IMG/VR virus record: IMGVR_UViG_3300032331_001703
Span: 1-29,939 of that record
Origin: a virus
Length of the DNA stretch: 29,939 bases
Strand: one strand, 5' to 3'
The notes beneath the pieces were generated by a model. That model saw only the letters and a list, made by a program, of their open reading frames with translations. It ran no database searches and was not told where the DNA came from. Position numbers and translations under genes: made by a program. The first letter of the stretch is position 1. Every line of letters begins with the position of its first letter. Positions 5,057-29,480 of the stretch are shown here, in pieces.

Positions 5057-5932
5057 TTATCCCCACTTAGCTTTAAGACTAGTTATAACTGATGCTCTTT
5101 CTGTTGAATCCATACTTCTATTGTAGAATGCAAATTCACATGCAACTAATGCTGGATAAGTAGTATTAGATGTGTAAGTTACTGGTCTAATTTGAAAATA
5201 TCTATTTGCATCTACTTGTGTAGAATAAATTGGTGTAGTGACTGTACCTGAAGCAGTACTTGTAGTACCTAAAGTAGTATTATATGAAATTCCATATGTA
5301 GCTCCAGTAACTGTGACAATATCATAATGAACAATAGATGTTGATCCTCTGTTGCTACTACTGGAAATAGCCGCAAATCTTTGTGCAGCGGAATAATTTA
5401 AAATATCAAGTTCATCTGTATTAGCAGTGGAATTAACCCAATAAGTTGCATCGTTAAAATCATAACTATAACCAGCCAAATACCACCTATACATTCTAGT
5501 ATAATTGGAAAGCGTTGTTGAGTGTCTCCAAACAGCAATCCAAGTATAAGAATCTGATACTCCCACATTTGGAAAAGCATTTCCATCAGAATTTAAAAAT
5601 GCTCCTTGATTTGCTGTTCCACTGCTTAATGCCAGAGACAAACATTTTCTTCCATTTTGAGTACTAATTGTACTTGAAAAAGTACCAGTACCAGATCTTT
5701 TATGATAAAGTTGTGGAGTTGTAGGTGATCCTCCAATAGAATATCCAGATGCTGAAGTAATTGCAGTACCATCACTAGTATAAGTAGTTCCAACAGCATC
5801 TGCTAATACAGAAAAATCCCAATGAGAATATAAATTATTTGTTGGTATTACTCCAGAATATGGTATAGATGATACTTTTTTTCTAGCATTAAATCCAAAA
5901 CTTGAACTAATTCTATTAGCAATTGGAGACAT
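5057..5932 (-). CDS. LamG/ConA-like lectin-fold virion protein
   Basis: A 291-residue protein that shows the signature of a laminin-G/concanavalin-A-like beta-sandwich over about residues 33-291. It has LYSHWDFS near the start, SYTWIAVWRH in the middle, and near the end LVACEFAFYNRSMDSTERASVITSLKAKWG-type features: an Ala-Cys-Glu strand, Tyr-Asn-Arg, Ser-x-Glu-Arg and a final helix. This ending is typical of LamG-like domains in phage and bacterial surface proteins, which often bind sugars. The first 32 residues look like a virion-docking tail. The start overlaps the stop of the 553-residue collagen-like gene by one base (TAATG), so the two are co-translated and probably work together. Inference: an adhesin attached to a collagen-like fibre. 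No catalytic motif is seen. Confidence 0.7.
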   Translation of the reverse strand: MSPIANRISSSFGFNARKKVSSIPYSGVIPTNNLYSHWDFSVLADAVGTTYTSDGTAITSASGYSIGGSPTTPQLYHKRSGTGTFSSTISTQNGRKCLSLALSSGTANQGAFLNSDGNAFPNVGVSDSYTWIAVWRHSTTLSNYTRMYRWYLAGYSYDFNDATYWVNSTANTDELDILNYSAAQRFAAISSSSNRGSTSIVHYDIVTVTGATYGISYNTTLGTTSTASGTVTTPIYSTQVDANRYFQIRPVTYTSNTTYPALVACEFAFYNRSMDSTERASVITSLKAKWG

Positions 5933-7964: not shown

Positions 7965-10900
7965 TTATCTACCTAACGCAATGATCAATGGTGTTACTGT
8001 ATTTAACAGACTTTGACTAAATGATCTTCCAGAAATCGTTCCAGTTGATTGATTAATGACAACTCCTTCACCAATTTGGAAGTTACCTGCTTGATTTGTG
8101 CTGGTATAAACAACTTGTCCACCATTGCGCTTATCAACTTCATTTGCTTGAATGGTTACCCCACCCAATGCAGGTTTTGCCGTATTAATATCTGTACCAG
8201 AACCAACCCATTCAAGTGAAATTGATGTTGCAATCTGCAGACTTATTCTAGAAAAATAAACTGTAGATCCAGCACTGACTGTATTATTTAGATTCTGGAC
8301 CAAAACAACCGTAGAAATTCCTGCAGAAGGAAGTGTTGCATCTTGAATGGAATAGTATAGGGGATACATAATTGCCGATGCTGCAGCACCCACCCCATTA
8401 CCACCAGCATTTTCAGTAATTGTAATATTTGGAGTTGTTAAATATTGATTTCCATTACTAATAACATCAACAGAAACCACAGAACCATTTACAACATTTG
8501 CCGATCCTTCTGCTCTAATTCCATTTGGACCTACAGGAAAATCAATAGTTACGAATGGTGGATTTGTATCACTATATCCACTACCACCATTAGTTATCTC
8601 AATTGTATTTACTTGGTAATATAATTTATCAAAATAAATTGCTTGTCCGTCATAAGGTCTTTGCGTTCCAATACCAGATATTACTACAGTATCTGTTTTT
8701 GCTGCAGGATCATCAACATTTACTGTATCTACAGTTTTTCCAGTATAACGATAAATTGATTTTGTTTTATAATCCCCAACACCATCAGAAACTAGACCAT
8801 AATTACCAAAAGAAGCATTTGAGTTAGTAATATCACATTGCCCACCAGATTGAGTGAAGATGCCAATATCATCACAAATAGTAAAGATAGAAACCAACTG
8901 AGAATATGCACCATTTGTAATCGAAACTCCAATACCACCTTGATTATATTGAGTATAAGAGTCAACACTCATTGTACCAGTAACGCCAATATCTGGTTGA
9001 TCTCCTGGTTCTGCATTAAATCCATCAACTTTCATTCCAATACTATCTGGAATAAAGTTTGTACAGTTTCTAATGTATGGACCCTGTGTAATTGGACCAA
9101 CACCTTTAGAATATGGTGGAAGAACAACTCCACCAGCAACATAAGTATGACCAATTCCACTTGTTCCGACATTGACGGTGAAAGTATTACCAGATCCAAC
9201 CACACTCAGTACTCTAAAATCATATCCACTATTTCCTGTTGGGAATATTGTTGTGGTTCCAGCACCACTAGAACATGCAAATTCTAAATCACGAAGAGTT
9301 ACAATATCACCAACTCTAACATTTAATCCAGGAGCAACAATGGTAGTGATTCCAGTTGTATTATTATAAGATGCTTGGAATACATCTAAGGCACGATTAA
9401 TAACATAACCACCAGAAACATATGTATGAGGAATCGTAGTAATTCCTGTATAAATGTCAAATGATCCATCAGAATTGACTTTTTCAATATAAAATTCATT
9501 TCCATATCTTCCAGATGGAAATAGTTGCGTTGATGTTGGTCCACCAGATGAACAAGAGAATAACAGATCACGAACTTCAATGATGTCACCTTTTTTCAAA
9601 GAGAATCCATCAGCAGTAATTGTTGTTTTACCACTCTTTTCATCATAAATTGCGTTGGTAATATTCCTTAATGTATTGAAACCAGATCCCCTATTTCCTG
9701 GATATGAAGTAGTAATTCCCGCAGTAGATCCTAATCCAACAATCGTAGTTACAACACCAACACAAGATCTGAGTGCAGAAGTAACATCAGCACAGGAACT
9801 AATCACATTGTTAAATCCAGTTTCTGGATCAACTTGCATTGCAAGATCTTTAATTTGTGTAAATTCTTCTTGATAATTTGTATATTTTTGAACAGTTCCA
9901 CCAGAAACATAGGTATGGGGAAGAACAGTTTTTCCACCAACAAATTCGAATGTATTTGGTCCTACAACAGATTTAACTGGGAAAATATAATTAAATGTTC
10001 CATCTGGGAAAGTATTTGTTGTATAGTTTGCAGTGATTCTTCCTCCAGTTACATATTGATGAGAGAGAGTTGAAACACCAACATTAACTTTAACTTTATT
10101 TGAAGAATATAATGCAGGATAAGAACTTAAATTTCCATTCGTAACTACAGTAGTAAGAATTGAAATCAAGTTATCAATGTTTGTTTGCACATCGGCACAA
10201 GAAGATGGTGATGTATTAAATCCAGTCAATGGATCAGCACTAATTGTTAGATCTTTAACATTTAATTGATTAGTAATTGCTTTTTTAGCATAGTCACGAA
10301 CAGCATTGAATGCGGTTACACTTTGTGCTTCTTCGCCAACCAATCCATTTGAAATTGGAGTGCCATCTTTGTTAAAATATGCTCTGGTTGCTTCACGAAT
10401 GTATTTGTTGGTTCCATATTTAACATCTTTGATTAGAGCATCAACAATGTATCCAATGTCTCTACGGCACTTATTCTCACCAGCAACAAAAATTCCAGGA
10501 TTATTGCGAATTGAATTTAAAGAAGATTGAGATTGTGCATCAATAACTGTTGTAATAATTAATGTAAGAGTATTTACAGTGCTTTGGACATTAGAGCATG
10601 ATAATGCCGATGTGTTCGATCCTGTTACTGGATCTGCAGTTATTGTTAAATCTTTGATTGTAAGTTGATTTGTAATTGCACTCTTGATCAGATCTCTAGA
10701 CTGATTAAATGCAAAAACATATGCACCTTTTTGGATAGATGGTATGATAGAGGTATTGCCATTAAAATATTGTCTTACAAATGAAATCGAATAAGAGTTT
10801 CCACCAGTAAAAACATCAGTGGATACTGCATCAATAAAATATCCAAGTTCTGTCTTATATTTTGATTGTAATGATGAAATAAATGGAAATTCTGCTACTG

Positions 10901-13900
10901 TTGCCGTCCAAGTACTATTAATAATTTCAGTTTTATTTTGTTGAATTAGGCGATATGAATCTCTAAATCTTGAGAATCTTGTAGTTTGAATATCATTTGG
11001 GAAATAGAAGTCTGGATATGAAATTGCAATTGAAGCAAGAGATTTGTCAATGATTTCAGTTCTATTTGCTTGAATTAAGTTTGATGCATCAATATAACGA
11101 TTATCTGCTGTGGCGATTACTGTGAAATCATATCCAAGATTTCCTGATGGATAATATGCTGTTGAAGGACCACCACCACTATTACATACCCATACAAGAT
11201 TTTCAAGTTTAACTTTTTGTCCTGGTTCGAGATACATTGCTGCACCCGAAGTTGTACCTAATCCAACAGCAGTGATCGTTGCAATTCCTGTTGTATTTGT
11301 ATAAATTGCTGTAGAAATACCAAATACTGGAGTATAAAGTCTGGATGCTTTTCCTCCAGTTACATATTGATGACTTAAAGTTGAAATTCCAACATTAACT
11401 AAGAATGTAGTTGAATCAAGAACATCTTGAACTGTAAAATCATATCCAAGATTTCCTGATGGATAATATGCTGTCGAAGGACCTCCGCCACTATTACATA
11501 CCCACACAAGATTTTCTAATTTAACTCTGTTTCCAGAAGTAATATTAAGTGATGATGTAGTTTGAATTGTAGCAATTCCTGTTATTCTATTATAAGATGC
11601 AGTTACAATACCAACTGGGAAACCTGCAGATCCTGAAGTGCATTCATACTTAAGACCTTGAACTTTAACAGGATCATCTATTGAAAGTCCATGATTAATA
11701 GCAGTAACTGTGGTTATACCAGTATTTGCATCATACACAGCATTTACAACAGTAGTTCCAAGTCCAACAGGATACCCACCCCAAGAACAATTATTAATTA
11801 TTGAACGAGCAATATTGAATGAATAATCAAATGTTGATATTGTTTGTTGAACTTCTCCAGGATTGTGAAGAATTTGTGGAATTAAATTCCAATCAGAATC
11901 ATAATAAGCTTTACCTGCAGAAACTGATTTGGAGTTTCCACCTCTTGTAATATCATAAATGATACATTTCCACAATGATTTGACATCAGCAGAACATTTA
12001 TCACTTTCAAGTACAACTCCATAACGAACTGGAGGAGCAGTTGATGTGCTCGCTGCACCAATCATTGTGGTTACAATACCTACAAGTTGACGAATTGTTG
12101 TTCCTACTCCAACACAACCACCATCTACGAGAATAACAGATGCATTTTTGATTTGAGCAACACTATTTCCAATTCCTTGATATGAAATGGGAGGAGTGTA
12201 GTTATTGATCACATGAGTTGCAATTCCTGCAGCATAATCTAATGCAGCAATTGTTGCCTGCTGAGTTGCAATACCAGTAATATGAATTAATCCACCAGAA
12301 CTATTAAAATATGAATAACCTGCACCAATTGATTTGCGATTACTATTTGCCTTAAGATCATAAGAAACTGCACTCATGATGCTCACAATATCTTCTTTGC
12401 AGTTTGTATAATCACTATTATTGAGTGTAAAATTATAACCAGAAGGAGATGTTAGGAATCCAACTGCTTCTGCAGCAATATAATTAAGATTGCTATCAAT
12501 TAATTTTGCAGCATCTTGTTCTCTATGATTTCCAGCAAATCCACTAAATCCACTTGTTAAAAATCCGACTGATTCTTTTGCAATGTAATCTAGATTCAAA
12601 CGAATCATTCTTGAAGCATCAAAGAATCTATCAGTGGATACACCAAGTAAAGGTTGAAGTGCTACTATAGCAGCTCCATTTGTTGAGTTTGGACCAATAA
12701 AACTTATATTAGTAATATGGCATCCATTGTTTACATAAAATAGATCTTGATCAGGATATTGTGGTGTTACTACACAATTACGCAGTTCTGTTCCCTGTAC
12801 TGATACAGTTTTTGCCAGAACAATTGGGTTATTTTCAACATATACACCTGGGAATACTTTAATTGTATCTCCAAATAAAGCAACGGAAGCCGCTGCTTTA
12901 ATTGTTTTCTTTGGATAATTTTCTGCTAATCCTGTATTATCATCATTACCTGTTTGGGAAACATAAATTGTCTTTCCGATTGGACGATATGCATCGACAG
13001 TTACTTTACCTTTTCCTGGACTTTGTGTTGCAGTAATATCAATACCAATTCCAGGTACTAATTGTGTTACAATTCCAACTAAATTTACACCACTACCAAA
13101 ATACTCAGTAGCAGTTGCTGTTCCAACAACTGTTAAAGTATCTGTTATTGCAGTTGTTCCAATACCCAAACTTCCCGAAGAAGGATTATAGACCAGTTTT
13201 TCTGAAGAAACATATGCAGTTCCTATTGATCCACTTATTGTTTTTGAAAATGTTGGATAAGTAATTTCATTGCTTGTTAAATCATCCTCTACTTCTAGAA
13301 AAGATTGTGCTCCTGCACCTTGAATACCTTGAGTACCTTGGGTTCCTTGTACTCCTTGTACTCCTTGAGCATTTTGTATACCCTGATTACCTTGAGTTCC
13401 TTGTACTCCTTGAGTACCTTGGACACCTTGTGTTCCTTGTACTCCTTGAGTTCCTTGAGCATTTTGTATACCCTGAGACCCCTGCAGACCCTGTATTCCT
13501 TGTGAACCCTGCAGACCCTGTGTTCCTTGAGAACCCTGATGACCTTGAAGACCTTGAGTTCCTTGAGGTCCTTGAGGCCCACTTCCCTGAATACCTTGAT
13601 TTCCTTGTGTAGCTTGAAATCCTTGAGTACCTTGAAGACCTTGTGTACCTTGGAAATTACTTAACGGACCTTGAAGACCTTGAGTTCCTTGATTTCCCTG
13701 AAGTCCTTGACTACCTTGAAGTCCTTGACTACCTTGAAGTCCTTGACTACCTTGATGACCTTGAAGACCTTGCGATCCTTGAAGACCTTGGACTCCTTGT
13801 AGACCTTGAGTACCTTGATAACCTTGAAGTCCTTGATGACCTTGCGTACCCTGAAGTCCTTGAACACCTTGAACCCCCTGAACACCTTGAAGACCTTGCG

Positions 13901-15062
13901 TATGTTGGACACCTTGAGTGCCTTGTCTTCCTTGAAGTCCTTGGACTCCTTGTGTTCCTTGGAAGTTACTTAATGGACCTTGGAGACCTTGAGTACCTTG
14001 ATTGCCAGTTTTAACAAAATGAACAGATACTCTTTCAGCATGTGGTGGTCTAGAATTTCCACTAATATAATTAACAGATATTCGATAATAACTATATGAA
14101 GTACCTGAAAATGGACCATTGTATACCACTGAAGTTACATTAGTTACTCCAAAAATATTTACAGTAGTTCCTGAAGATGTTGATGAAGTAATTATCAAAT
14201 ATCCTCTAGGAAAACTAGAAGATGTATTCCAAGTGTCATACCAAGAATTTTGAGTATTGTTAAATGAATCTTGATTACTAAAAAGAATCTCTGTTACTGC
14301 AGATACATTAGTAGTACTAGGATATCTTATTTCTCCAGTTGCAAGGGTATCTACTGGAGCACTAACTCCACTTTGAGATGGATAATTAGTATTAACACCA
14401 TTAAAAAAGTATGGAACTCCACCAATAGCACCAATAATACCTTGAGTACCTTGAAAGTTACTTAATGGACCTTGAAGACCTTGAACACCTTGAGTACCTT
14501 GTCTACCCTGAGTGGCTTGAAGGCCTTGTGGACCTTGTGTACCTTGGAAATTGCTTATTTGTCCTTGAAGACCCTGAAGACCTTGTATACCTTGAGTGCC
14601 TTGGCGACCTTGAAGACCTTGAGTACCTTGAGATCCTTGAAGACCTTGAACACCTTGAACACCTTGGTGACCTTGAAGACCTTGGGTTGCTTGAAGTCCT
14701 TGATTTCCTTGAACACCCTGAGTATTTTGTATACCTTGATTACCTTGAACACCTTGTGATGCTTGTGTACCTTGAAATCCTGTAGAACCTTGAAGACCTT
14801 GAGTACCTTGAGCATTTTGAACACCTTGCGTTCCTTGAGAACCTTGAAGACCTTGGGTGCCTTGGAAGTTACTAATTGGACCTTGAGTACCCTGGAAATT
14901 ACTTAATGTTCCCTGAACACCTTGAGTACCACTACCACCAGATCCAGATCCAGAAACTACTCCTTCTTCATTTACAATATCACCATAAACCTTTATCCCC
15001 TTAAAAAAGGTTGCTTTTTCGTTAAAATATGCTTCCTGCCCTGTAGTAATAATATCTGACAT
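7965..15062 (-). CDS. Giant collagen-like tail-fibre/structural protein (2365 residues)
   Basis: Order of parts: a short N-terminal anchor (1-42); collagen-like Gly-X-Gln segment 1 (about 43-208); a beta-rich inserted domain of about 140 residues (SGVSAPVDTLATGEIRYPS...); collagen-like segment 2 (about 351-585); then a 1780-residue body. The body starts near residue 690 with a pectin-lyase-like beta-helix (KTIYVSQTGNDDNTG, then GDTIKVFPGVYVENNP). It continues with repeated helical units (ASRMIRLNLDYIAKE-type), four units with DIGYIVDALIKDV- or SYFNSSGG-type sequence, and several CNSGGGPSTAYYPSG modules ending in HTYVSGG. A GGSGY...NPPFVTI module lies near 2157-2220. The C-terminus (FQIGEGVVINQSTGTISGRS) is typical of cyanophage structural proteins. 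It directly follows the spike gene, so it probably attaches to the baseplate. The body is conserved among cyanomyoviruses; the collagen segments look like the variable part. Confidence 0.82.
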   Translation of the reverse strand: MSDIITTGQEAYFNEKATFFKGIKVYGDIVNEEGVVSGSGSGGSGTQGVQGTLSNFQGTQGPISNFQGTQGLQGSQGTQGVQNAQGTQGLQGSTGFQGTQASQGVQGNQGIQNTQGVQGNQGLQATQGLQGHQGVQGVQGLQGSQGTQGLQGRQGTQGIQGLQGLQGQISNFQGTQGPQGLQATQGRQGTQGVQGLQGPLSNFQGTQGIIGAIGGVPYFFNGVNTNYPSQSGVSAPVDTLATGEIRYPSTTNVSAVTEILFSNQDSFNNTQNSWYDTWNTSSSFPRGYLIITSSTSSGTTVNIFGVTNVTSVVYNGPFSGTSYSYYRISVNYISGNSRPPHAERVSVHFVKTGNQGTQGLQGPLSNFQGTQGVQGLQGRQGTQGVQHTQGLQGVQGVQGVQGLQGTQGHQGLQGYQGTQGLQGVQGLQGSQGLQGHQGSQGLQGSQGLQGSQGLQGNQGTQGLQGPLSNFQGTQGLQGTQGFQATQGNQGIQGSGPQGPQGTQGLQGHQGSQGTQGLQGSQGIQGLQGSQGIQNAQGTQGVQGTQGVQGTQGVQGTQGNQGIQNAQGVQGVQGTQGTQGIQGAGAQSFLEVEDDLTSNEITYPTFSKTISGSIGTAYVSSEKLVYNPSSGSLGIGTTAITDTLTVVGTATATEYFGSGVNLVGIVTQLVPGIGIDITATQSPGKGKVTVDAYRPIGKTIYVSQTGNDDNTGLAENYPKKTIKAAASVALFGDTIKVFPGVYVENNPIVLAKTVSVQGTELRNCVVTPQYPDQDLFYVNNGCHITNISFIGPNSTNGAAIVALQPLLGVSTDRFFDASRMIRLNLDYIAKESVGFLTSGFSGFAGNHREQDAAKLIDSNLNYIAAEAVGFLTSPSGYNFTLNNSDYTNCKEDIVSIMSAVSYDLKANSNRKSIGAGYSYFNSSGGLIHITGIATQQATIAALDYAAGIATHVINNYTPPISYQGIGNSVAQIKNASVILVDGGCVGVGTTIRQLVGIVTTMIGAASTSTAPPVRYGVVLESDKCSADVKSLWKCIIYDITRGGNSKSVSAGKAYYDSDWNLIPQILHNPGEVQQTISTFDYSFNIARSIINNCSWGGYPVGLGTTVVNAVYDANTGITTVTAINHGLSIDDPVKVQGLKYECTSGSAGFPVGIVTASYNRITGIATIQTTSSLNITSGNRVKLENLVWVCNSGGGPSTAYYPSGNLGYDFTVQDVLDSTTFLVNVGISTLSHQYVTGGKASRLYTPVFGISTAIYTNTTGIATITAVGLGTTSGAAMYLEPGQKVKLENLVWVCNSGGGPSTAYYPSGNLGYDFTVIATADNRYIDASNLIQANRTEIIDKSLASIAISYPDFYFPNDIQTTRFSRFRDSYRLIQQNKTEIINSTWTATVAEFPFISSLQSKYKTELGYFIDAVSTDVFTGGNSYSISFVRQYFNGNTSIIPSIQKGAYVFAFNQSRDLIKSAITNQLTIKDLTITADPVTGSNTSALSCSNVQSTVNTLTLIITTVIDAQSQSSLNSIRNNPGIFVAGENKCRRDIGYIVDALIKDVKYGTNKYIREATRAYFNKDGTPISNGLVGEEAQSVTAFNAVRDYAKKAITNQLNVKDLTISADPLTGFNTSPSSCADVQTNIDNLISILTTVVTNGNLSSYPALYSSNKVKVNVGVSTLSHQYVTGGRITANYTTNTFPDGTFNYIFPVKSVVGPNTFEFVGGKTVLPHTYVSGGTVQKYTNYQEEFTQIKDLAMQVDPETGFNNVISSCADVTSALRSCVGVVTTIVGLGSTAGITTSYPGNRGSGFNTLRNITNAIYDEKSGKTTITADGFSLKKGDIIEVRDLLFSCSSGGPTSTQLFPSGRYGNEFYIEKVNSDGSFDIYTGITTIPHTYVSGGYVINRALDVFQASYNNTTGITTIVAPGLNVRVGDIVTLRDLEFACSSGAGTTTIFPTGNSGYDFRVLSVVGSGNTFTVNVGTSGIGHTYVAGGVVLPPYSKGVGPITQGPYIRNCTNFIPDSIGMKVDGFNAEPGDQPDIGVTGTMSVDSYTQYNQGGIGVSITNGAYSQLVSIFTICDDIGIFTQSGGQCDITNSNASFGNYGLVSDGVGDYKTKSIYRYTGKTVDTVNVDDPAAKTDTVVISGIGTQRPYDGQAIYFDKLYYQVNTIEITNGGSGYSDTNPPFVTIDFPVGPNGIRAEGSANVVNGSVVSVDVISNGNQYLTTPNITITENAGGNGVGAAASAIMYPLYYSIQDATLPSAGISTVVLVQNLNNTVSAGSTVYFSRISLQIATSISLEWVGSGTDINTAKPALGGVTIQANEVDKRNGGQVVYTSTNQAGNFQIGEGVVINQSTGTISGRSFSQSLLNTVTPLIIALGR
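11119..11214 (-). repeat. 96-bp direct repeat, copy A, within the giant fibre gene
   Basis: This stretch matches 11431-11526 with about 7 differences in 96 bp by eye, and both copies encode the same residues (VKLENLVWVCNSGGG then PSTAYYPSGNLGYDFTV). Four or more of the differences are in third codon positions. The copies are 312 bp apart, start to start. Confidence 0.9.
11431..11526 (-). repeat. 96-bp direct repeat, copy B, within the giant fibre gene
   Basis: Partner of the repeat at 11119-11214, in the same orientation and reading frame. More divergent relatives of the module are encoded near 9230-9300 (LEFACSSGAGTT) and 9510-9590 (LLFSCSSGGPTS). This points to a module family inside one gene. 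Confidence 0.9.
13305..14005 (-). repeat. Collagen-like repeat segment 2 of the giant fibre
   Basis: About 700 bp of 9-bp units encoding Gly-X-Gln triplets, with two LSNFQGTQG hinges and several Gly-to-Asn triplets (QNAQ). A shorter run encodes GVQGTQ repeated in tandem near 13390-13450. Confidence 0.92.
14430..14935 (-). repeat. Collagen-like repeat segment 1 of the giant fibre
   Basis: About 500 bp of 9-bp units encoding Gly-X-Gln triplets, with four (L/I)SNFQGTQG hinges. It is separated from segment 2 by a non-repetitive insert at about 14006-14430. Confidence 0.92.
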
Positions 15063-15063
15063 A

Positions 15064-15630
15064 TTATAAACCTATAATTGATGTTATTCCACCACTAAAG
15101 GCAGTTTTTACAATATCAGCACCAACATAAGTTCCGGCAAAGACAATCTCTCCAAAACTAGATCCTGGTGGAGCAAGATTTCCATCCAATGCATCACAAT
15201 CTGCCTTATTTGCTTTAATTAAAAGTCTTCCAGATCCAGAATCCAATGTAATATTTCTTCCTGCTTTGATATCTACATCTTCGTCAGCATCAATCATAAT
15301 GTTCTGACCACGAATTCTTACTCTTCCATTTTTTTCTGCAGTAATACAAACATCACCATTTCTTCCAGTAATTACAATATCTACACCATTAGACTGACTT
15401 TTTTGTCCCGCAATCAATTCTATTGAATGATCATTGTAAATCTTATAAGTTCCACCTTCACTCAACCCAGTAATACAAACATCTTTACTATCTGTTACTG
15501 CATAAAGATTATAGACATCAGTACCATTTGATCCCATTGTGGGATTATTCATGTCCAATCTAAACTTTGGACCAAAACTGGTTATACTTCTTCCTTGCCA
15601 ATTTTGCTTATCAAGGGGTCTTTCTGCCAT
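15064..15630 (-). CDS. Baseplate central spike, beta-helical (gp5 C-terminal-like)
   Basis: A 188-residue protein whose middle (about 70-150) has a short, regular beta period: GVDIVITGRNGDVCITAEKN, GRVRIRGQNIMIDADEDVDI and KAGRNITLDSGSGRLLIKAN. This is the pattern of the trimeric beta-helix of T4 gp5C and of VgrG spikes. A short N-terminal part would join it to the hub, and a small C-terminal domain ends SFGEIVFAGTYVGADIVKTA. It lies one base downstream of gp5, which lacks this needle, so in this phage the hub and the spike are separate polypeptides. Role: membrane-puncturing tip at the centre of the baseplate. A separate PAAR tip was not seen. Confidence 0.72.
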   Translation of the reverse strand: MAERPLDKQNWQGRSITSFGPKFRLDMNNPTMGSNGTDVYNLYAVTDSKDVCITGLSEGGTYKIYNDHSIELIAGQKSQSNGVDIVITGRNGDVCITAEKNGRVRIRGQNIMIDADEDVDIKAGRNITLDSGSGRLLIKANKADCDALDGNLAPPGSSFGEIVFAGTYVGADIVKTAFSGGITSIIGL

Positions 15631-15631
15631 T

Positions 15632-17653
15632 TTATGTTACACAATCTATGCTTTGCTTAACTTCACCTTGGAATTCTGTAGGACTTATATCAAGTATTGC
15701 TCTAAGTATAACTCCAGATCCAGTATCAGATTTAACCGTTAAAATTGGCAAATCATTTACGATAACAGTATTTATTTCAGTTTGTTGTGCCGTCGTTGTT
15801 GGTGTTAGTGATGAAGTTCCAGGAATACTTGGGGTTACTTTAATGACTGAACCATTAAAGATTTTTGTAGGATATTGGTTACCAAAATTATCAACCACTA
15901 CATCATTAGGTGAATAATTTTCTCCAGGATTTTCAATCAATATATCTTTTACGACATAATTTTGAATTGTGTCAATTGGATAGTTTTCTCCCTCAGATAC
16001 AATATAAATTGAATCAACTTCTCCAGCATCATTAACAGTTGCTCTTGCTACAGCACCATATCCTTGATTACAATTATCAACTATTTCTACAAATGGTGGG
16101 AATCTATATCCAGATCCACCACCAGTTAATTTTGCACCAATAACACTCCCAGTTAATCCATTAATTGCACCCATTAGTGGAATTGCAGTTGCACCAGATC
16201 CTCCACCACCAAAAATAGTACATGTAGGAGATCCGCATCTTGTAGGTTTTCCTGTATAACAATTACCAACTGTATTGGGAATATTATTTACAGCACTAAA
16301 TGCACCAGCAACTCCGCCAATAACATTCTGTGCCTCACCTAACAAATTACTAGCAGTTGAGGCAATATTTGCATTTTCTAAAATTTTTGAAAAATCTGGT
16401 GCTGGAGCATTTGAAGGTCCTTGTCCAATTATCCATTGATCAACAATGCCATTTGCTTTTCCTTTACTTTGATTGCAGTCAAATAATCCAACAAGACCTT
16501 TGATTGCATCAGAACTTGTTCTTAAGAAACTATCAACACCAAAGGAAGGAAAGAATTGAAGAATTTTTTGAACTCCTCCAATTGCAGAACTTAATCCACT
16601 TGTTATTTTTCCAATAATATCATTGACGAGTGCTCCCGTAAATTGTTGGGCTGCACAACTTACAAAATTTTGCACATTATTAACTACAGAATTGAGAATA
16701 TTTTGAATGACACTTCCCAATCCACTAATAATTGCTCCAGAAACACAAGGAATTGCTTTCTGCAATGCTTTAACTGCTGGAACCATTACAGTTTGTGCCG
16801 CTACTCCAGCAGCATGTGCAATTGCAGGATTTAAAGTTGCAGATAAAATTAAACCATAAATCTGTTGATACAATAACTTTAATCCTTGATTGAGTAATGG
16901 TGCTAGTTTTGTGAATAATTTATTCACCATATTACCAACTAATCCATTGGTAATTGCTTGAATTTTATCAGTAACACGTTTAACTTCATTTGCAATATTT
17001 GTAAAAATTGCAGGTGCTTTGATTTTATTGACCAAATTACTAACTTCAGTCGAAATTTTATTAACTGTTGTACTACCTACCGTGTTTGCAAGTTGAATCT
17101 TGTCACCGATTGCACTAAAATATGAAATCTCATCGTCGGCAATATTTTTCGCTTGTTCTGGAGATACATGTCTCGGAGATTTTTGAGACTGTGCATTCTG
17201 TTCATTTGATTGATCAGGTTTCAGTGTACCATTTGGTTTTTTGACTTTACCAGTATATCCAGTGAATGGTTGAAAAGGTCCTGGAGTATTAGAAGTAAGA
17301 ACCTGTGAAGTTCTTCCAAAACATCCCATAATCACAGGAGTCTGTGCATTATCAGTATCCAAGAAAAATCCAAAAACAACATCACCAGGAGAAATTTTTA
17401 CACTAGTTGCATTATTACCAGCACCTGTTCCAGAAGTTGTTGGAAGTAAACATTGTGCCCAGGGTAAATCTTCATCTGGAAGTTCAGTAAGATCATAAGG
17501 ATGATACCCCATGATACGAACTTTAAATCTATTTCCCCAACCTGCTCCATTAATTTGTCCACCATGAGCACTCTCTGGCGGAATCTGCCCGATCCACCAA
17601 CGAAATCCGTCTCTTCCTAGAAAATTAGTCTTTAGTAAGGATTCTTGTATCAT
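15632..17653 (-). CDS. gp5: Baseplate hub protein gp5, without lysozyme domain
   Basis: A 673-residue hub protein. Residues about 12-120 match the gp5 OB-fold: GRDGFRWWIGQIPPES, WGNRFKVRIMGYHPYD, LPWAQCLLPTTSGTGAGN, then ISPGDVVFGFFLDTD and PVIMGCFGRT. The middle (about 180-420) is helical with several hydrophobic, Ala/Val-rich stretches, unlike T4 gp5, where a lysozyme domain sits. The C-terminal third has a GGGSGYRFPPFVEI...VYIVSEGENYP-type beta module that recurs in the giant fibre. No lysozyme catalytic sequence is visible. Its ATG overlaps the gp27 stop (ATGA), matching the gp27-gp5 complex of T4. Longer than T4 gp5 (575 residues). Role: binds gp27 and carries the spike. Confidence 0.85.
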   Translation of the reverse strand: MIQESLLKTNFLGRDGFRWWIGQIPPESAHGGQINGAGWGNRFKVRIMGYHPYDLTELPDEDLPWAQCLLPTTSGTGAGNNATSVKISPGDVVFGFFLDTDNAQTPVIMGCFGRTSQVLTSNTPGPFQPFTGYTGKVKKPNGTLKPDQSNEQNAQSQKSPRHVSPEQAKNIADDEISYFSAIGDKIQLANTVGSTTVNKISTEVSNLVNKIKAPAIFTNIANEVKRVTDKIQAITNGLVGNMVNKLFTKLAPLLNQGLKLLYQQIYGLILSATLNPAIAHAAGVAAQTVMVPAVKALQKAIPCVSGAIISGLGSVIQNILNSVVNNVQNFVSCAAQQFTGALVNDIIGKITSGLSSAIGGVQKILQFFPSFGVDSFLRTSSDAIKGLVGLFDCNQSKGKANGIVDQWIIGQGPSNAPAPDFSKILENANIASTASNLLGEAQNVIGGVAGAFSAVNNIPNTVGNCYTGKPTRCGSPTCTIFGGGGSGATAIPLMGAINGLTGSVIGAKLTGGGSGYRFPPFVEIVDNCNQGYGAVARATVNDAGEVDSIYIVSEGENYPIDTIQNYVVKDILIENPGENYSPNDVVVDNFGNQYPTKIFNGSVIKVTPSIPGTSSLTPTTTAQQTEINTVIVNDLPILTVKSDTGSGVILRAILDISPTEFQGEVKQSIDCVT

Positions 17654-18999
17654 TTATCGTTAGTTCCATGTGCTCCAAAGGTATCTCTAATCAACTTCAT
17701 TGAAGTATATGATGCATCAGTATCAAAATGATGACATAATTCTTTTATCATATATAGACCACTTTGATCCTTATCATATTCCTCACTATCACCTCTTGAA
17801 ATTTTTGGAAATTTGCATTCAATGATGTCACCCGCTTTTAAATTAGTATTTGAAGGTACAACTATACTTAATGTTTGAGTAAAAAGCATGTTGTATCTCA
17901 TAATCGCCTGAGATTGATACTTGAAAGGATCCGAATTTACATCAGTAGATACATCCTTTTCCATTGTTCCAATGTCCAACACTTGAGTTAAAAATCTGGT
18001 TGGTATGTGACCAAGATCAACATTTGAACTATTTGAAATTTTTGGTAACTCAAGTTTTTGTCCAAGATTTTTTACGCCACTTACATAGTCATCAGTTGTA
18101 AATGTACCTTTCTGAGGATCTGTAAATTCAAATGTTAACGGATTATAAAACATACGATAACTTGCATAAGATCCGAGTCTTAATTTTTCAAGTAAATTTT
18201 GATTTCTTTCCGTTTTATAATTGAGAATCTTAAAATCATTATCTCTATCAATTCCAGATTTATTAACCTGCGTATAAGTATATGTTGGAATTTTATCAGG
18301 TTTTTGTGAAATTAAACTATCAATAGATCTGAATTGAAATCCTTCCTTTGTTTGATAAAATACAAATCCTGCTGTTGCATCTCCAGAAATTTCTGCAGGA
18401 ACACCTTTAGATGCTAACCATACTAAAATTGTAAATGGTTTTCTCAAATTTCCAATAAATCCATATTTGTTTTGAGTCTTATCAATTTTACCAATCTTTT
18501 CGGTCTTTAGATAGTTTTTAAGGATATCTTCTACCGAAGCATCAATTGTCGAACTTGTTTTATATTTTTTTCCAACTCTTGAGGTCTCATTTGTAATTGC
18601 TTCTCTGGAGGTTAAATTCAAAAGAAATGTTTCTCTCTGAGATTCTGTTACAATATCCGTAATACTTGAGACATATAAGTAATCCTTTTCATTGGTTGCA
18701 AAATCCAATCCTGGATTTTTAGTAGAGTTTCCTTTGATCTTCAATGAGACTCTCTCACCACCACGAAGAGGAAGACCATTATAAATTGATTGCTTTTCTC
18801 CATCAAGATTCCCCTCTTTGTCAGGTGCCTGAATAGCATCTCCAGTATTAACTATTCTAATTTTTGCAGTAATTGTTGGCGAAAAAATATCTTCATAATA
18901 ATCAATAGCCACAGCACCCTGTCTAATATCAGCAGTTCTTTTTTGGTCGTTCGATTCTATGGTCAATTCTTCATAAATTGACTTATTAATTGCTGCCAT
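17650..18999 (-). CDS. gp27: Baseplate hub protein gp27
   Basis: A 449-residue protein that resembles T4-type gp27, the trimeric hub forming a torus between the tail tube and gp5. Characteristic stretches are AVAIDYYEDIFSPTITAKIR near the N-terminus (tube-like domain), TRFLTQVLDIG in the middle, and YNMLFTQTLSIVVPSNTNLK, AGDIIECKFP and QSGLYMIKELCHHFDTD near the C-terminus. It is somewhat longer than T4 gp27 (391 residues). The start overlaps the stop of the upstream 612-residue gene (TAATG) and the stop overlaps the gp5 start (ATGA), giving strict co-expression. Confidence is high because of the sequence signature together with the adjacency to gp5. Confidence 0.85.
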   Translation of the reverse strand: MAAINKSIYEELTIESNDQKRTADIRQGAVAIDYYEDIFSPTITAKIRIVNTGDAIQAPDKEGNLDGEKQSIYNGLPLRGGERVSLKIKGNSTKNPGLDFATNEKDYLYVSSITDIVTESQRETFLLNLTSREAITNETSRVGKKYKTSSTIDASVEDILKNYLKTEKIGKIDKTQNKYGFIGNLRKPFTILVWLASKGVPAEISGDATAGFVFYQTKEGFQFRSIDSLISQKPDKIPTYTYTQVNKSGIDRDNDFKILNYKTERNQNLLEKLRLGSYASYRMFYNPLTFEFTDPQKGTFTTDDYVSGVKNLGQKLELPKISNSSNVDLGHIPTRFLTQVLDIGTMEKDVSTDVNSDPFKYQSQAIMRYNMLFTQTLSIVVPSNTNLKAGDIIECKFPKISRGDSEEYDKDQSGLYMIKELCHHFDTDASYTSMKLIRDTFGAHGTNDK

Positions 19000-20837
19000 T
19001 AGGTATACGCTAACTCTAGAAGTATTTGATTCTTAATAAGACTATTTAACGAATCTTCAACGGGCATTGGTTCTGAACCTCCCCCACTACCAGAAGAAAC
19101 TTGTTGTGGTGCAGATGGTTGACGATCATCCACAACCACAACTTGCTGACCTTTTTTATTTTGAGTAACTGAAGGAACATTTTGTCCTGGTTGAGTTGTT
19201 GATGATATTTGTGCTGATGGTGTCGATTGTGGAGCACTGACATCAGCAATACCAAGTTCTTTATCACTCTTAAGTGCAGTATCGGCAGACTTTGTAAACC
19301 CAACATGTAAATGATTATGGTGGCCACCATATGCTTCTCTTTTATAATCTTTCATTCCAGTGAACCAATAACCAATAGGATCAAAGATTAAGGCCTTAAT
19401 GCCATATCTTTGTCTACTTGCATATAATGATAGGAATAAACTCTTTAATCTTGGAATTCCTGATGCTTCTGTTCCTTTCCAATCTGTAACATCAAGAGCA
19501 TTAGTTCCATGATCTTTAGAATTATGTCCACCAACTGGAGAATCTCCCTTTGGATTAAATCCTTTAAATTTAGTAAAATACTTATTTTCTGCTACAGAAA
19601 ATCCTTGATTAAGAATTCCTTTACCAACAGTGATCACATTTCCAGATGCTCCAGGTGCTTCAGTCGATTTTGTAGGAGAACTTACAAAAGATGGTACAGT
19701 TCCAGGTGTACCACCAACAACCTCTTCATTTAAAAACTGATTATCAGATCTACTTCCTCTCCAAGTAACATTTCTCAAATTATTTCCAGTATTTTGAGGA
19801 CTTCCTCTAAAACTTGTTCTTGTACCAACAAATTCTCTGGCAGATGTTTGTTTGCTAGGATCTTGAATTGCAGAAATTGTGCTAAGAACTGCTCTTTCTG
19901 CCGTTGCTCTATTTTCTCCAGTCTTTTTCATTCTATATTTTACAGCATCATCAAAAGTTCTAATATTTTTTGATTCTGGGTCAATACCTCCACCTTTTCC
20001 GAAGAAAGGTTGATATTGACCAGGAGATGTAGTCACATCAACAACACCTTTTCCACTTTTTTTCATTCTATTATAAATTGATTGAGCAACATCTGCTTGT
20101 CCTTGTGCATATCCACTTTCTAAACCAGATATTGTTGCAAGAGTGTAAAGATCTTGCCCACCACCAGTAGTAGGGCCAGGTTGAGTATAATCAGTATTCA
20201 ATGGTGCAGGTGGTTCTTCCCCAGGGCCCTGTCCAAGAGGAGTTGTGAGTAATTTAAATCCATCTTCAAATTGATCGTGCATTGCATCAACATTTGCACC
20301 CAGATCATCCATTGCACTTTGAACTCTTTTTGATTGATCAGTAAAATCAAAATGAGTAATATCATAATATACACCAGAAAGAAGTTGTCCAAAATTTTGA
20401 AATGTATTAGTAATATTAGATACAAACTCAGTTAATATCCCATACAAAGATTTAATTCTAGTAATCAAATCTTCAATTGCTGTTATAATTGTTGGCAGAT
20501 TATAAAGTAACCAACCAAGCAAAAGACTAGATGCAAAATCTAATATTCTACCAAGAAATCCTTTTGTACTGTCAGCAATTACCGATCCAGTTCTTTTAAA
20601 TGCACCACTAATACCAGAAGCTTCAATTACACTTTCCTGATCTTTTCTTCTAACTGCTTCCTCTCTCATATTAGTGAGCATTCTATCTCTAAAAATAGAT
20701 TCTCTTTTTATTCTTGTTCTGTTAAGAGTGACAGTTTTTACAGTATTTGCAGATTGTTTTAATTGATCCAATCCAGTATTGAGAGATTTTATTCCACTCG
20801 ATACTTTAGTCAAATTAATTGGAGATGCAATTGCCAT
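18999..20837 (-). CDS. Tape-measure-like tail protein with two predicted cell-wall-cutting domains
   Basis: A 612-residue protein. Residues 1-90 are charged and helical; 93-121 form a hydrophobic segment (FLGRILDFASSLLLGWLLYN). Residues about 229-348 resemble SleB/Hydrolase_2 wall hydrolases: a Glu at 240 (TISGLESGYAQG), DVAQSIYNRMKK, then TTSPGQYQPFFG. Residues about 402-520 resemble LAS/M15-type metallopeptidases: HGTNALDVTD (His443, Asp449) and GGHHNHLHVGF (His509, His511) as likely zinc ligands. The His443-Asp449 spacing is one shorter than the usual HxxxxxxD, so the exact ligands are uncertain. The tail is Pro/Ser/Gln-rich, ending in a helix. T4 has gp29 (tape measure) in this gene neighbourhood and a lysozyme on gp5; here the wall-cutting activity appears to sit in this protein. 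It is usually annotated only as structural in related phages. Confidence 0.68.
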   Translation of the reverse strand: MAIASPINLTKVSSGIKSLNTGLDQLKQSANTVKTVTLNRTRIKRESIFRDRMLTNMREEAVRRKDQESVIEASGISGAFKRTGSVIADSTKGFLGRILDFASSLLLGWLLYNLPTIITAIEDLITRIKSLYGILTEFVSNITNTFQNFGQLLSGVYYDITHFDFTDQSKRVQSAMDDLGANVDAMHDQFEDGFKLLTTPLGQGPGEEPPAPLNTDYTQPGPTTGGGQDLYTLATISGLESGYAQGQADVAQSIYNRMKKSGKGVVDVTTSPGQYQPFFGKGGGIDPESKNIRTFDDAVKYRMKKTGENRATAERAVLSTISAIQDPSKQTSAREFVGTRTSFRGSPQNTGNNLRNVTWRGSRSDNQFLNEEVVGGTPGTVPSFVSSPTKSTEAPGASGNVITVGKGILNQGFSVAENKYFTKFKGFNPKGDSPVGGHNSKDHGTNALDVTDWKGTEASGIPRLKSLFLSLYASRQRYGIKALIFDPIGYWFTGMKDYKREAYGGHHNHLHVGFTKSADTALKSDKELGIADVSAPQSTPSAQISSTTQPGQNVPSVTQNKKGQQVVVVDDRQPSAPQQVSSGSGGGSEPMPVEDSLNSLIKNQILLELAYT

Positions 20838-20838
20838 A

Positions 20839-22494
20839 TTACATTACCACATTATAATTAATTTGTGAATATAATGTATAGAAATTATCAGGATTGGAAG
20901 AAGGAATAGCAGGAACATCACTCGCAGCACCACTCTTTAATGGTTGTTGCGGTGGTGGACTAGAAGAACCAGAAGATGTATATACAATATTTGGTTTTGG
21001 TTCAGGTTCTGGTCCAACATTAACTGGTGCAGTTGGAACTTTTGATGTTTCTGCTGGTGTTATTTTTGGAGTAGAAGGTTTAGATGAAGTTTCTGCTGGT
21101 GTTGTAGTTTCTTTATCTTTAGGATATGGTGGTAATTGTGAAGTTTGTTCTGTTGAAGATGTAGATGTTTTTGCTGGTGTTGTAGTAGGTGTTGGTGTAG
21201 TTTCTGGTTGAGTTGCAGTTGGTTGAGATGGTGCAGTTAATAATGGTTGCGAAAATGCCAATTTAGTTTTATCAACTTTAGGTTGAAGATCAGTAGATTG
21301 AGAAGCCTTTGCAGTTGTTGGTGTAGTTATTTTCTTGGGTTGAGGTTTTTGCCTTTCCTTTTCCTTTTCTTTTGGTTTATCTACTCCCGTGAGAATATCA
21401 GCACCTTTTCCACCAAGAAAATATCCCGTACCAGCACCAATTAAAGTTGCTGGAAGTTTTAACATTCCCGGAAATTTTGATCCCAGTTTTGCACCAGCTT
21501 CTGCTGCAATAAGACTACCAGATGCTCCTGCTCCTGCCTGAATATTTGTTTGTCCTTCACCTTTTCTTTGGAGAAAGTCAAATCCACCAAGAGCAAGATT
21601 AAATCCAGTTTTAGCAATTCCTTTACCAATTTTACCAATACCACTAAGAAGTCCTTCTCCAGCACCTTTTTCAGCACCTGATGTAACTGCTTTTGTTCCA
21701 GCCTCTGCTTCTTTAGCACCACCACCAGTTACTGCTCTTGTTACACCCTTTGCAAGACTTGCCATTCCTTGAAAAAGTTTTCCAAGTGTATTTGCAATTA
21801 CAAATTTTCCAATTTTTCCTGCAAGTCCAAAAATAGTACCAATAACACGACCTATACCAAGATTAATAATAAGAAATATGCCACCAGCAATTCCAAGTGT
21901 TTTAATTACAGAATCTTTAATCTCATTCAGTTGTTTCTTATCACCATCTTGATAAGCTTTAATTGCCTTTATTCCTTCAAGAGTTAACCATCCTCCAAGT
22001 AATGTCCCTATAAATGACATTAAATTTTGGAATCCAAATGAAACCTTATTTCCAATGCGATTTATTGGTTCTGATAAGGCACTTTGAATTTTGGATTCTA
22101 ATAAACTTTCTTTTCCTCCTCTCGCACCTGCTTCTGCTAATCTTTTTTCTTTTTCTTGCTCATAAAGATCCTTTTGCTTTTCAATAGCACTCTCACTTGC
22201 AGTGATTGTTGCAATTGATTCTAAGGTTTCATTAACTTTACCTAATTGAAGTCTTACAGTATCAATCTGAGTAGCAAAAGATTGTTGAAAATTTGCAAAA
22301 ACTCCAATATTGGTGATATTATTTTTATTTAATTCATTAACTTGATTTTGTAATGATGCTACTGAAGATGAAAGTGATTGTAATGTAGATTTGGTTTCAG
22401 GATCTGGTTTGTTTCCACCAAAAACACTTCCCGATACGGTACTTTCATTAATACCCTGAATTGAATTGGAAAGTGGCGATGGTAAAACTGCCAT
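20839..22494 (-). CDS. Tape-measure-like tail protein with membrane segments (gp29-like candidate)
   Basis: A 551-residue protein with no enzyme motif. Residues about 35-155 are a coiled-coil region (LQSLSSSVASLQNQVNELNK, IEKQKDLYEQEKEKRLAEAG). Residues about 160-270 hold two or three hydrophobic segments (FQNLMSFIGTLLGGWLTLEG; TLGIAGGIFLIINLGIGRVI). An Ala/Gly-rich region (about 320-370) ends LIGAGTGYFLGGKGADILTG. Residues about 375-545 are a Pro/Thr/Ser-rich linker. Its length and build suit T4 gp29 (590 residues), the tail-length determinant in the hub, and it sits between the gp26/gp51-like genes and gp27 as gp29 does in spirit. It and the following 612-residue protein share the plan of coil, membrane segment and disordered tail, so either could be the ruler. 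Sequence identity to gp29 was not recognised. Confidence 0.55.
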   Translation of the reverse strand: MAVLPSPLSNSIQGINESTVSGSVFGGNKPDPETKSTLQSLSSSVASLQNQVNELNKNNITNIGVFANFQQSFATQIDTVRLQLGKVNETLESIATITASESAIEKQKDLYEQEKEKRLAEAGARGGKESLLESKIQSALSEPINRIGNKVSFGFQNLMSFIGTLLGGWLTLEGIKAIKAYQDGDKKQLNEIKDSVIKTLGIAGGIFLIINLGIGRVIGTIFGLAGKIGKFVIANTLGKLFQGMASLAKGVTRAVTGGGAKEAEAGTKAVTSGAEKGAGEGLLSGIGKIGKGIAKTGFNLALGGFDFLQRKGEGQTNIQAGAGASGSLIAAEAGAKLGSKFPGMLKLPATLIGAGTGYFLGGKGADILTGVDKPKEKEKERQKPQPKKITTPTTAKASQSTDLQPKVDKTKLAFSQPLLTAPSQPTATQPETTPTPTTTPAKTSTSSTEQTSQLPPYPKDKETTTPAETSSKPSTPKITPAETSKVPTAPVNVGPEPEPKPNIVYTSSGSSSPPPQQPLKSGAASDVPAIPSSNPDNFYTLYSQINYNVVM

Positions 22495-22664
22495 TAGGAT
22501 TGTTGATTTCTAAGATTTTCTTCTTCAATATATTGTTGTAATAGAGTAATATAAATTTCCTTTTCCCAAGGAATCATATTTTCAAGCTCTGTTAATGAAT
22601 ATTTATGGTGTTGCATCAAAGAAAAATTAGTTCGGAAGTATGACGCAAGATCATTATGCGCCAT
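22494..22664 (-). CDS. gp51: gp51-like baseplate hub assembly protein (56 residues)
   Basis: A small gene of 56 codons. It starts 2 nt after the gp26 stop (ATG at 22664) and its TAA overlaps the ATG of the next gene (TAATG at 22494). The product starts MAHNDLASYFRTNFSLMQ and continues HHKYSLTELENMIPWEKEIY, then LLQQYIEEENLRNQQS. The FSLMQHHKYSLTELENMIPWE pattern is common to short cyanophage proteins next to gp26 that are annotated as the baseplate hub assembly catalyst gp51. T4 gp51 is larger, so this is an assignment by position and short-motif recognition. The product is soluble and mostly helical. Perfect packing between its neighbours argues that it is a real, translated gene. Confidence 0.7.
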   Translation of the reverse strand: MAHNDLASYFRTNFSLMQHHKYSLTELENMIPWEKEIYITLLQQYIEEENLRNQQS

Positions 22665-22666
22665 AC

Positions 22667-23386
22667 TTACACGAAAAAAGCAGGAAGTCCCTCCAATACG
22701 ACTTCACTTTGAATACCAGTATTTGGATTTTTAATTTTAATATTATGAGAAAGTTTGGGCATTGTTTCAAAGAATTTTTCGATTTCTTTGAATTGCTTCG
22801 AACTTAATTGCTCAACAAATTCTGAAAGTTCTTTTTTTGAACATTCACTTCCAATCCATGACTCTTCTTCAGAATATACTTGATCGATACATGAACAAAT
22901 CAGGTCAAAGGATTCATTAACACCAATTCCCTCTCCACTATTAAAATTATTTTTAATGAATTCTGCCATGGAAGGATACTTCATTCTCATGGTCAAAGTA
23001 TCATCTAATTTAATATCTTTATTATGACCTTCTTGCTCTTGTACTAAAATTTCATCCAGATTAATGCTGACAGGAACTTTTGTTGTATTATCATCTGGGC
23101 ATGTAATTAATATATCAACAGTTTCACCAACAGATTTGCCACGAATATTTAAAAACAAATATTCAATATCAAATGTTGAAAGATCATCAATCTTAATTCC
23201 TTTGCTTAAAATGCAGTTTGAAATTACTGTTTTAACTGCATTTGCAATTTGTTTGCTATCCTCACTTTCCATTGCAATAATGAGGATTTTTTCTTCTTTA
23301 ACTAAAAATGGGCGATATCTAATTTTTTTCTTTAATGAAGGTATTTCCAACTCATAAATTGGAGTCGCAATTGTTGGTAAAGGCAT
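22667..23386 (-). CDS. gp26: Baseplate hub subunit gp26 (T4 baseplate family)
   Basis: A 239-residue protein beginning MPLPTIATPIYELEIPSL, with the conserved motif of an edge strand plus KKKIRYRPFLVKEEKILIIA and helix ANAVKTVISNCI, then FDIEYLFLNIRGKSVGE. This matches the T4-type baseplate protein family that includes gp26, needed for hub assembly. It is slightly longer than T4 gp26 (208 residues). It is the first gene after a late promoter (23413-23420), at the head of the hub operon gp26, gp51-like, two tape-measure-like genes, gp27, gp5, spike. The C-terminal part (KEIEKFFETMPKLSHNIKIK) may be a flexible contact arm. It is soluble, with no membrane segment. Confidence 0.82.
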   Translation of the reverse strand: MPLPTIATPIYELEIPSLKKKIRYRPFLVKEEKILIIAMESEDSKQIANAVKTVISNCILSKGIKIDDLSTFDIEYLFLNIRGKSVGETVDILITCPDDNTTKVPVSINLDEILVQEQEGHNKDIKLDDTLTMRMKYPSMAEFIKNNFNSGEGIGVNESFDLICSCIDQVYSEEESWIGSECSKKELSEFVEQLSSKQFKEIEKFFETMPKLSHNIKIKNPNTGIQSEVVLEGLPAFFV

Positions 23387-28812: not shown

Positions 28813-29457
28813 TTACTTTCCTCCGTATGTCTTATATCTTGATTTTTCAGTATCATTCCATTTTTTAGTAACGAAGTCTTTACCAACACCAGTTCCCTCT
28901 ACACCTTTTAATTTGGAAAGAACTCTTAGTCCAGATGGAAGTGCTGTTGGAGTCGGTGTTGCTGCTATTTTTGGTTTAATTTCAGATTTTGAGGGTCTAC
29001 TGCCCGAATCATAAGAAGCATATCTAGCAGGATGGACACCATCTCTTCCTGGTTTGAATCCACCTCTAAAATTAGCACCATAACTTGATGAAAGGGATGC
29101 TAATCTAGCATTTTCTTTATCATAACGACCTTGAGCAGCACCAAGAACATTTACTTTAGCACCAGACTTTTGGAGAAGAGCGAGTTGTCTCTCAATACTT
29201 TTAAAATCACTTGGGTTGTTACTTACACCAGTTGATACATTGATAGTTTGTCCTTTAAATTTATTTGGATTATCTTTCATATCTCTCTCAAGATATCCAA
29301 GAACTTCTGAAGGACTTGCTCCAACTCTTCTAGATCCTGGAGATTTTCCACCATACCCAACAGCAATACTATCCCCATAATAATATTCTTTCAAATCACC
29401 AGCAAGGGATGCTGAGGCAAGTGAAGAGGCAAGTAAAAACTGTCCGAAAGTTTTCAT
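28813..29457 (-). CDS. Secreted SGNH-type hydrolase
   Basis: A 214-residue protein with a Sec signal peptide (MKTFGQFLLASSLASASLA, likely cut after residue 19). The mature part has SGNH hydrolase blocks: YYGDSIAVGYG (nucleophile Ser30), VSTGVSNNP (Gly77, Asn80) and GRDGVHPARY (Asp139, His142). SGNH enzymes are esterases or lipases. The C-terminal 60 residues (PTPTALPSGLRVLSKLKG onward) are a Pro/Lys-rich, lectin-free extension. The start at 29457 gives the best signal peptide; an ATG at 29472 is possible but lies very close to the promoter. A late promoter (29481-29488) is directly upstream, so it is made late although it sits among replication genes. Likely role: removal of acyl groups from the host envelope, or help in lysis. 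The substrate is unknown. Confidence 0.75.
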   Translation of the reverse strand: MKTFGQFLLASSLASASLAGDLKEYYYGDSIAVGYGGKSPGSRRVGASPSEVLGYLERDMKDNPNKFKGQTINVSTGVSNNPSDFKSIERQLALLQKSGAKVNVLGAAQGRYDKENARLASLSSSYGANFRGGFKPGRDGVHPARYASYDSGSRPSKSEIKPKIAATPTPTALPSGLRVLSKLKGVEGTGVGKDFVTKKWNDTEKSRYKTYGGK

Positions 29458-29480
29458 TAACTTACTTATCATTGTAAAAT

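Follow-up and report, generated by a model that had tools for sequence, protein, structure and literature searches.

Few viruses of marine and fresh water are as common as the T4-like cyanophages, and in T4 itself the usual wall cutter is the tail lysozyme carried on gp5. How, then, does a T4-like cyanophage whose gp5 lacks a lysozyme profile open the wall of its host? We addressed this question in a window (the whole stretch of DNA analysed) of 29,939 bases from an IMG/VR virus record. It covers part of the genome of a T4-like cyanomyophage (Kyanoviridae), and the annotated isolate with the closest gp27-like protein (64.5% identity) is S-SRM01, which came from a reservoir in Singapore. The answer proposed here centres on a 612-aa protein, referred to as slot 14, which is likely to be a virion tail protein at the hub or tape position. 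Its conserved structural ends would flank two modules, a lytic transglycosylase of SleB type and, after it, a LAS zinc peptidase of MT3 type.

Slot 14 lies in the baseplate-hub gene cluster

A sequence-only reading of this DNA had described an open reading frame at 18999..20837, and the frame exists with all of the strings quoted from it, on the minus strand. In reading direction the cluster runs from the tail tube gene through gp26, the baseplate hub assembly protein (22667..23386, minus strand; PF12322, E 4e-73), a small gp51-like ORF of 56 aa (22494..22664, minus strand), recognized by frame translation at the gp51 position as in relatives, slot 13 (551 aa; 20839..22494, minus strand), slot 14, a gp27-like hub protein (phrog_350; 17650..18999, minus strand; E 2e-107), gp5 (15632..17653, minus strand) and a 188-aa protein (15064..15630, minus strand; phrog_3363, E 4e-66). 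The same order, with minor variations, is found in P-SSM2, S-SRM01, S-SCSM2R, S-CAM22 and S-SZBM1, and the slot-14 gene sits between gp51 and gp27 in the hub cluster of all relatives examined. Along positions 17650–20839 (minus strand), stop codons overlap the following starts or lie almost next to them, the stop of slot 14 overlapping the start of the gp27-like gene, which suggests that slot 14, the gp27-like gene and gp5 are translationally coupled. Three putative fibre proteins of the window (1592–4996, 5932–7593 and 7965–15062, minus strand), one of them 2365 aa long, contain very long collagen-like G-x-x (GLQGTQG) repeats.

Profile searches found the Gp5_OB domain alone in the gp5 of the window, in agreement with the earlier claim that this protein has no lysozyme. 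Among 38 gp5 homologues, Gp5_OB was matched in 35 and a lysozyme or peptidase family profile in none. A lysozyme hidden in the C-terminal part of gp5 was also considered and rejected, as no profile matched there. Database records nevertheless name cyanophage gp5s 'baseplate hub and tail lysozyme', although the lysozyme domain was not found. The 188-aa protein that follows gp5 may be a spike tip split from it; its S-SRM01 homologue gives a weak match to DUF2345.

Slot 14 is built from two enzyme-like modules and two conserved ends. Its N-terminal structural module (aa 1–217; 20187..20837, minus strand), conserved in the alignment and containing a hydrophobic segment at aa ~94–140, is homologous to the N terminus of slot 13 (hhalign probability 98.2%, E 5.8e-14), so the two proteins are paralogues. 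No enzyme profile was detected in the slot-13 protein of the window; in some relatives, slot 13 contains SleB, LAS or lysozyme-like modules. A C-terminal tail (aa 553–612, ...NSLIKNQILLELAYT; 19002..19181, minus strand) is conserved in the alignments of relatives.

A SleB-like module with a candidate catalytic glutamate

The first module (aa 226–374; 19716..20162, minus strand) is a predicted lytic transglycosylase, identified by an AlphaFold2 model, a structure match and intermediate sequences. It contains the strings on which the sequence-only reading had based its SleB/Hydrolase_2 proposal, namely E240, DVAQSIYNRM at 249 and SPGQYQPFFG. The expected profile match was obtained only in part: with the single sequence, Hydrolase_2 (PF07486) scored 13.4 bits over aa 245–306 (E=0.12), below the cut-off of 27, and we therefore name the module SleB-like and do not count it as a member of PF07486. 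The relatives bridge this distance, the best of them, L025, reaching 23.0 bits (E 1.3e-4) and L040 an E-value of 0.005; both, together with the slot-13 protein of S-SCSM2R (annotated as SleB), have the SleB-like module in common with the window protein. Single-sequence PDB and Pfam searches gave no usable assignment for this module or for the second one, and a PDB profile search with the SleB module alone gave no match.

For structure prediction, a full-length alignment misaligned the modules and was replaced by two-module and SleB-only alignments. The SleB-only AlphaFold2 model was confident (pLDDT 82.5, pTM 0.83). Foldseek against the PDB returned nothing at E 0.001 or better for the SleB-only and two-module models, and a second structure comparison (VIA) separated the true relatives. 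In that comparison the SleB-only model matched the SleB catalytic domain 4fet_A with Z 8.8 (rmsd 3.3, 110 of 122 residues aligned), the next row being at Z 2.8. In an alignment of ten SleB-module relatives, E240 (codon at 20118..20120, minus strand) and the Q/NR/Q positions are invariant. SleB itself has a known essential glutamate (PMC12331253), and E240 is the candidate catalytic glutamate of the window module.

An MT3-type module with a putative zinc site

The second module (aa 396–525; 19263..19652, minus strand) is a LAS metallopeptidase-like module of MT3 type, defined by the two-module model (pLDDT 81), a match to VldE and 77 related viral loci. The strings quoted for it earlier are present (HGTNALDVTD from 443, HHNHLHVGF from 506). 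The M15 profile expected by the sequence-only reading was not found: single-sequence Pfam searches with the window protein gave no M15 or VanY match, aa 410–519 matched a PHROG of unknown function, and profile searches with the module returned hedgehogs as their only matches (E about 0.05–0.1). The predicted structure aligned with the C-terminal domain of the MT3 L,D-endopeptidase VldE (9flh/9flm) at Z 8.8–9.4 over 96–97 residues (rmsd 2.6), the next unrelated row being at 6.5; further down the list came hedgehog (Shh) and MepA at Z 3.6–3.9. Hedgehog and MepA are LAS-type folds as well. Among viral structure models, the search returned SleB proteins, slot 14 of S-SM2 and the tape-measure protein of Synechococcus phage S-CBWM1, and matched Gordonia and Mycobacterium phage tape-measure proteins weakly. 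The folds proposed for the two segments were thus both recovered in confident models, placing two different wall-cutting folds on one tail protein of the hub cluster, with the LAS segment now specified as MT3 type.

Across 34 aligned relatives, D449, H506, H509 and H511 are invariant. H506, H509 and H511 reproduce the HxH motif with upstream His of MT3 domains (H370/H373/H375 in VldE), H509-L-H511 (19305..19313, minus strand) being the candidate zinc/catalytic motif. The first two candidate zinc ligands, H443-GTNAL-D449 (19491..19511, minus strand), are spaced as H-x5-D, one residue off the H-x6-D register that is standard for the family and present in 32 of the 34 relatives; Asp442 takes the place usually held by His, and in the AEH motif the otherwise near-invariant His is replaced by Asn. 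Both changes are limited to the window protein and the relatives L007/L097 and L098. The MT3 module is 91% identical to that of L007 with a dN/dS of 0.13, so that no other part measured is more strongly constrained; the SleB module gave 0.22 (window versus L005) and the N-terminal part 0.25–0.30. Because dN/dS is 0.22 and 0.13, both modules are conserved by selection. By predicted structure the second module has a LAS fold and may be a zinc peptidase, its putative zinc site being off register.

Enzyme modules are exchanged among related phages

Alignment of the five nearest relatives revealed conserved ends and replaced middles, with either enzyme exchanged. L005, whose gp27 is 97% identical to that of the window, retains the SleB module and has a different LAS module, L007 retains MT3 and has a lysozyme-like module instead of SleB, and L009 combines a lysozyme-like module with VanY/M15. 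Module identities are discordant with descent: L009 and L023 are 85% identical in the lysozyme-like module, 31% in the N-terminal part and 63% in gp27; L005 and L023 share 89% in the LAS module, 30% in the N-terminal part and 64% in gp27; and for L025 and L040 the corresponding values are 72% (SleB module), 22% and 61%. The slot-14 protein is modular, and its enzymes are swapped between related phages. In one relative (L026:10513-12369) the order of the slot-14 enzymes is reversed, with M23 first and an SLT-like module second. Elsewhere in the window (28813–29472, minus strand) lies a 219-aa SGNH/GDSL-like protein with a signal-like N terminus and no Pfam match; over 129 aa it shares 40% identity with a module that forms part of the L085 slot-14 tail protein, and this module therefore occurs both free-standing and as a tail-protein cassette.

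We then counted enzyme types over the slot-13 and slot-14 pair in 52 phages (the window, cultured isolates and IMG/VR contigs), some modules being assigned by motif alone. Glycosidase-type and peptidase-type modules were both present in 31 of the 52, one type only in 2 and no recognizable enzyme in 19, so that 31 of the 33 enzyme-bearing phages carry both. When the phages were dereplicated on their N-terminal parts at 50% identity, a step that does not fully remove relatedness, 19 with both types were left, 2 with one and 12 with none (Fisher p 4.6e-7). Where slot 14 has a single enzyme type, the other is often on slot 13 (the S-SCSM2R group, S-SZBM1 and L085). S-H34 (L196:2439-7456) and S-CREM2 (L195) have, by Pfam, a GH19 chitinase-class module on slot 13 and a GH24 lysozyme on slot 14; with two glycosidases in these phages, the pairing of glycosidase and peptidase is not a universal rule. 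Since 19 of the 52 have no recognizable enzyme at the locus, the lineage can do without the device.

Tentatively, and with somewhat less than even confidence, we read the paired tape/hub locus of T4-like cyanophages and their relatives as an exchangeable two-enzyme cartridge, in which a glycosidase slot and a peptidase slot are refilled by recombination from unrelated families and which may tune wall entry to the chemistry of the host wall, and hence host range. The pool for such a cartridge would comprise SleB, GH24, GH19 and SLT-like modules on one side and M23, MT3, VanY/M15, HYSNQAFDI-type LAS and CHAP modules on the other.

A possible tape-measure role and the probable virion location

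The description of slot 14 as tape-measure-like stands in part. In its favour are the position in the hub cluster, the N-terminal module shared with slot 13, and the lengths of the pair in two phages of one cluster: 1565 + 1456 aa in S-CREM2, with a tail of 418 nm, and 936 + 735 aa in its cluster mate S-H34, with a tail of 129 nm, gp26 and gp27 being equal in size in both. This near-doubling suggests a tape-measure role for the slot-13 and slot-14 proteins. Against it, homology to T4 gp29 was not found with the single sequence, and profiles of slots 13 and 14 reached an hhalign probability of at most 1.3% against a six-sequence gp29 profile; tape proteins diverge fast. S-CRM01, moreover, has a single such protein (864 aa; tail 140–170 nm), and simple tape-length arithmetic at 0.15 nm per residue was rejected because it misfits this phage. 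A 'putative tail tape measure' protein of HTVC008M matched the slot-13 profile weakly (32% probability).

The S-CREM2 proteins ORF208 and ORF209, which occupy exactly the slot-13 and slot-14 positions, were detected in virions (73 and 71 unique peptides; PMC10665884). By analogy with these orthologues, the slot-14 protein of the window would be located in the hub or tape of the virion. S-CREM2 has the longest reported cyanomyovirus tail, and its two long-tail proteins (L195:4484-13555) are extended by S/T/N-rich stretches and also by many copies of a ~14-residue repeat that has regularly spaced Phe (FQQSMGSVAPAGG...).

Proposed mechanism and alternative explanations

We suggest that the N- and C-terminal ends would keep slot 14 anchored in the hub or tail tube. 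As the sheath contracts, the spike would open the outer membrane, and the slot-14 protein would exit together with the DNA or before it; the SleB-type glycosidase would then cleave glycan strands and the MT3-type peptidase stem peptides, and the combined cuts would open a localized gap in the wall through which the DNA could enter. This proposal builds on the two folds, the conserved residues, purifying selection, the location in the hub cluster, cassette exchange and a gp5 without a lysozyme profile. Swappable modules of this kind are probably how T4-like cyanophages cut the host wall without an enzyme on gp5.

Three other explanations were weighed. Orthologues recorded as endolysin, lysozyme murein, chitinase or M23 family metallopeptidase would fit an endolysin responsible for lysis from within as infection ends. 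We regard this as very unlikely, given that the gene lies inside the baseplate-hub cluster in every relative examined and its stop overlaps the gp27-like start, that long N- and C-terminal parts are conserved and non-enzymatic, that certain orthologues have no enzyme at all, and that those of S-CREM2 are abundant in virions (PMC10665884). The altered zinc site raises a different question, namely whether slot 14 is a structural tape-measure or hub protein in which the SleB-like module alone is catalytic and MT3 serves as a peptidoglycan binder or spacer. The H-x5-D spacing and the lost AEH histidine, confined to the window protein and the relatives L007/L097 and L098, speak for such a role; with D449 and HxH intact, 91% identity to L007 at a dN/dS of 0.13 and a model in the LAS fold, it seems rather unlikely.

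The sequence-only reading had also linked the two modules to a thick cyanobacterial peptidoglycan, and most freshwater and coastal Synechococcus phages examined do have both enzymes. That an unusually thick wall requires both modules is nevertheless improbable. P-SSM2, with no enzyme detected in the slot-13/14 pair or gp5, and P-SSM7, with M15_3 and a glucosaminidase-like match, are both listed on Prochlorococcus NATL1A; as the two differ on one listed host strain, wall thickness was rejected as the driver. Phages of Gram-positive hosts, too, combine enzymes on tail proteins. We retain a two-enzyme virion tail protein as the preferred explanation.

Comparison with known systems

Wall opening by T4-like cyanophages is misannotated or unannotated, gp5 being called tail lysozyme and the slot-13 and slot-14 tail proteins endolysins. 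The slot-13/14 locus offers a concrete, testable answer to how these phages open the wall, and the enzyme exchanges that have occurred naturally in its conserved carrier could be used to find out whether host range is set by the enzymes of entry. The concept itself is already known. The earlier description of the device as overlooked finds no support in that form, as the hub of the Anabaena myophage A-1(L), the nearest experimental precedent in a cyanobacterial phage, is an experimentally tested glycosidase-plus-peptidase, with endoglucanase and peptidase domains of gp15 acting on Anabaena cells (PMC10966104), and the orthologues at the present locus have been annotated piecemeal as endolysin, SleB, M23 and chitinase. 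With the A-1(L) hub and the TM4 tape protein as precedents, the well-supported window feature would belong to the tail-associated lysins.

The likeness to the gp5 tail lysozyme and gp29 of T4 is one of proposed functional role, the local opening of the wall from the hub, and of hub gene neighbourhood; in the window phage the enzyme is not on gp5, and neither sequence nor profile comparison detected similarity to gp29. With the SleB catalytic domain (4fet; Hydrolase_2, PF07486) the window module shares the predicted fold, the Glu and the NR/Q motifs, but it falls below the Pfam cut-off, has no spore-cortex context and sits on a virus tail protein. The MT3 domain of VldE is named after motif 3 of the mycobacteriophage TM4 tape-measure protein (PMC11667670), whose Mt3 hydrolyses peptidoglycan and aids infection of stationary-phase cells (PMC1796659). 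TM4 Mt3 and pneumococcal VldE have the LAS/MT3 fold and the HxH with upstream His of the window module, and TM4 Mt3 is likewise embedded in a phage tail protein, whereas the window module has a first zinc-ligand spacing one residue shorter, a SleB-like glycosidase partner and a contractile T4-like tail.

Among nearer relatives, the slot-13 and slot-14 proteins of S-SRM01, S-CRM01, S-CAM22, S-RIM8, ACG-2014f, S-SCSM2R, S-H34 and S-CREM2 share the orthologous locus and the modular build but differ in their enzymes (SLT+M23, GH24+MT3, lysozyme-like+MT3, GH24+M23, SleB+CHAP and GH19+GH24). A-1(L) gp15 is a tail hub protein of a cyanobacterial myophage with glycosidase-type and peptidase domains, a build predicted for the window protein as well. 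Its lysozyme, endoglucanase and peptidase domains, however, are part of the barrel-domain hub protein, whereas the window phage is T4-like and has its enzymes, of SleB and MT3 type, on a separate protein beside gp27. The new element is a dedicated T4-like carrier locus that bears two enzymes in an exchangeable arrangement, next to a gp5 that is enzyme-free.
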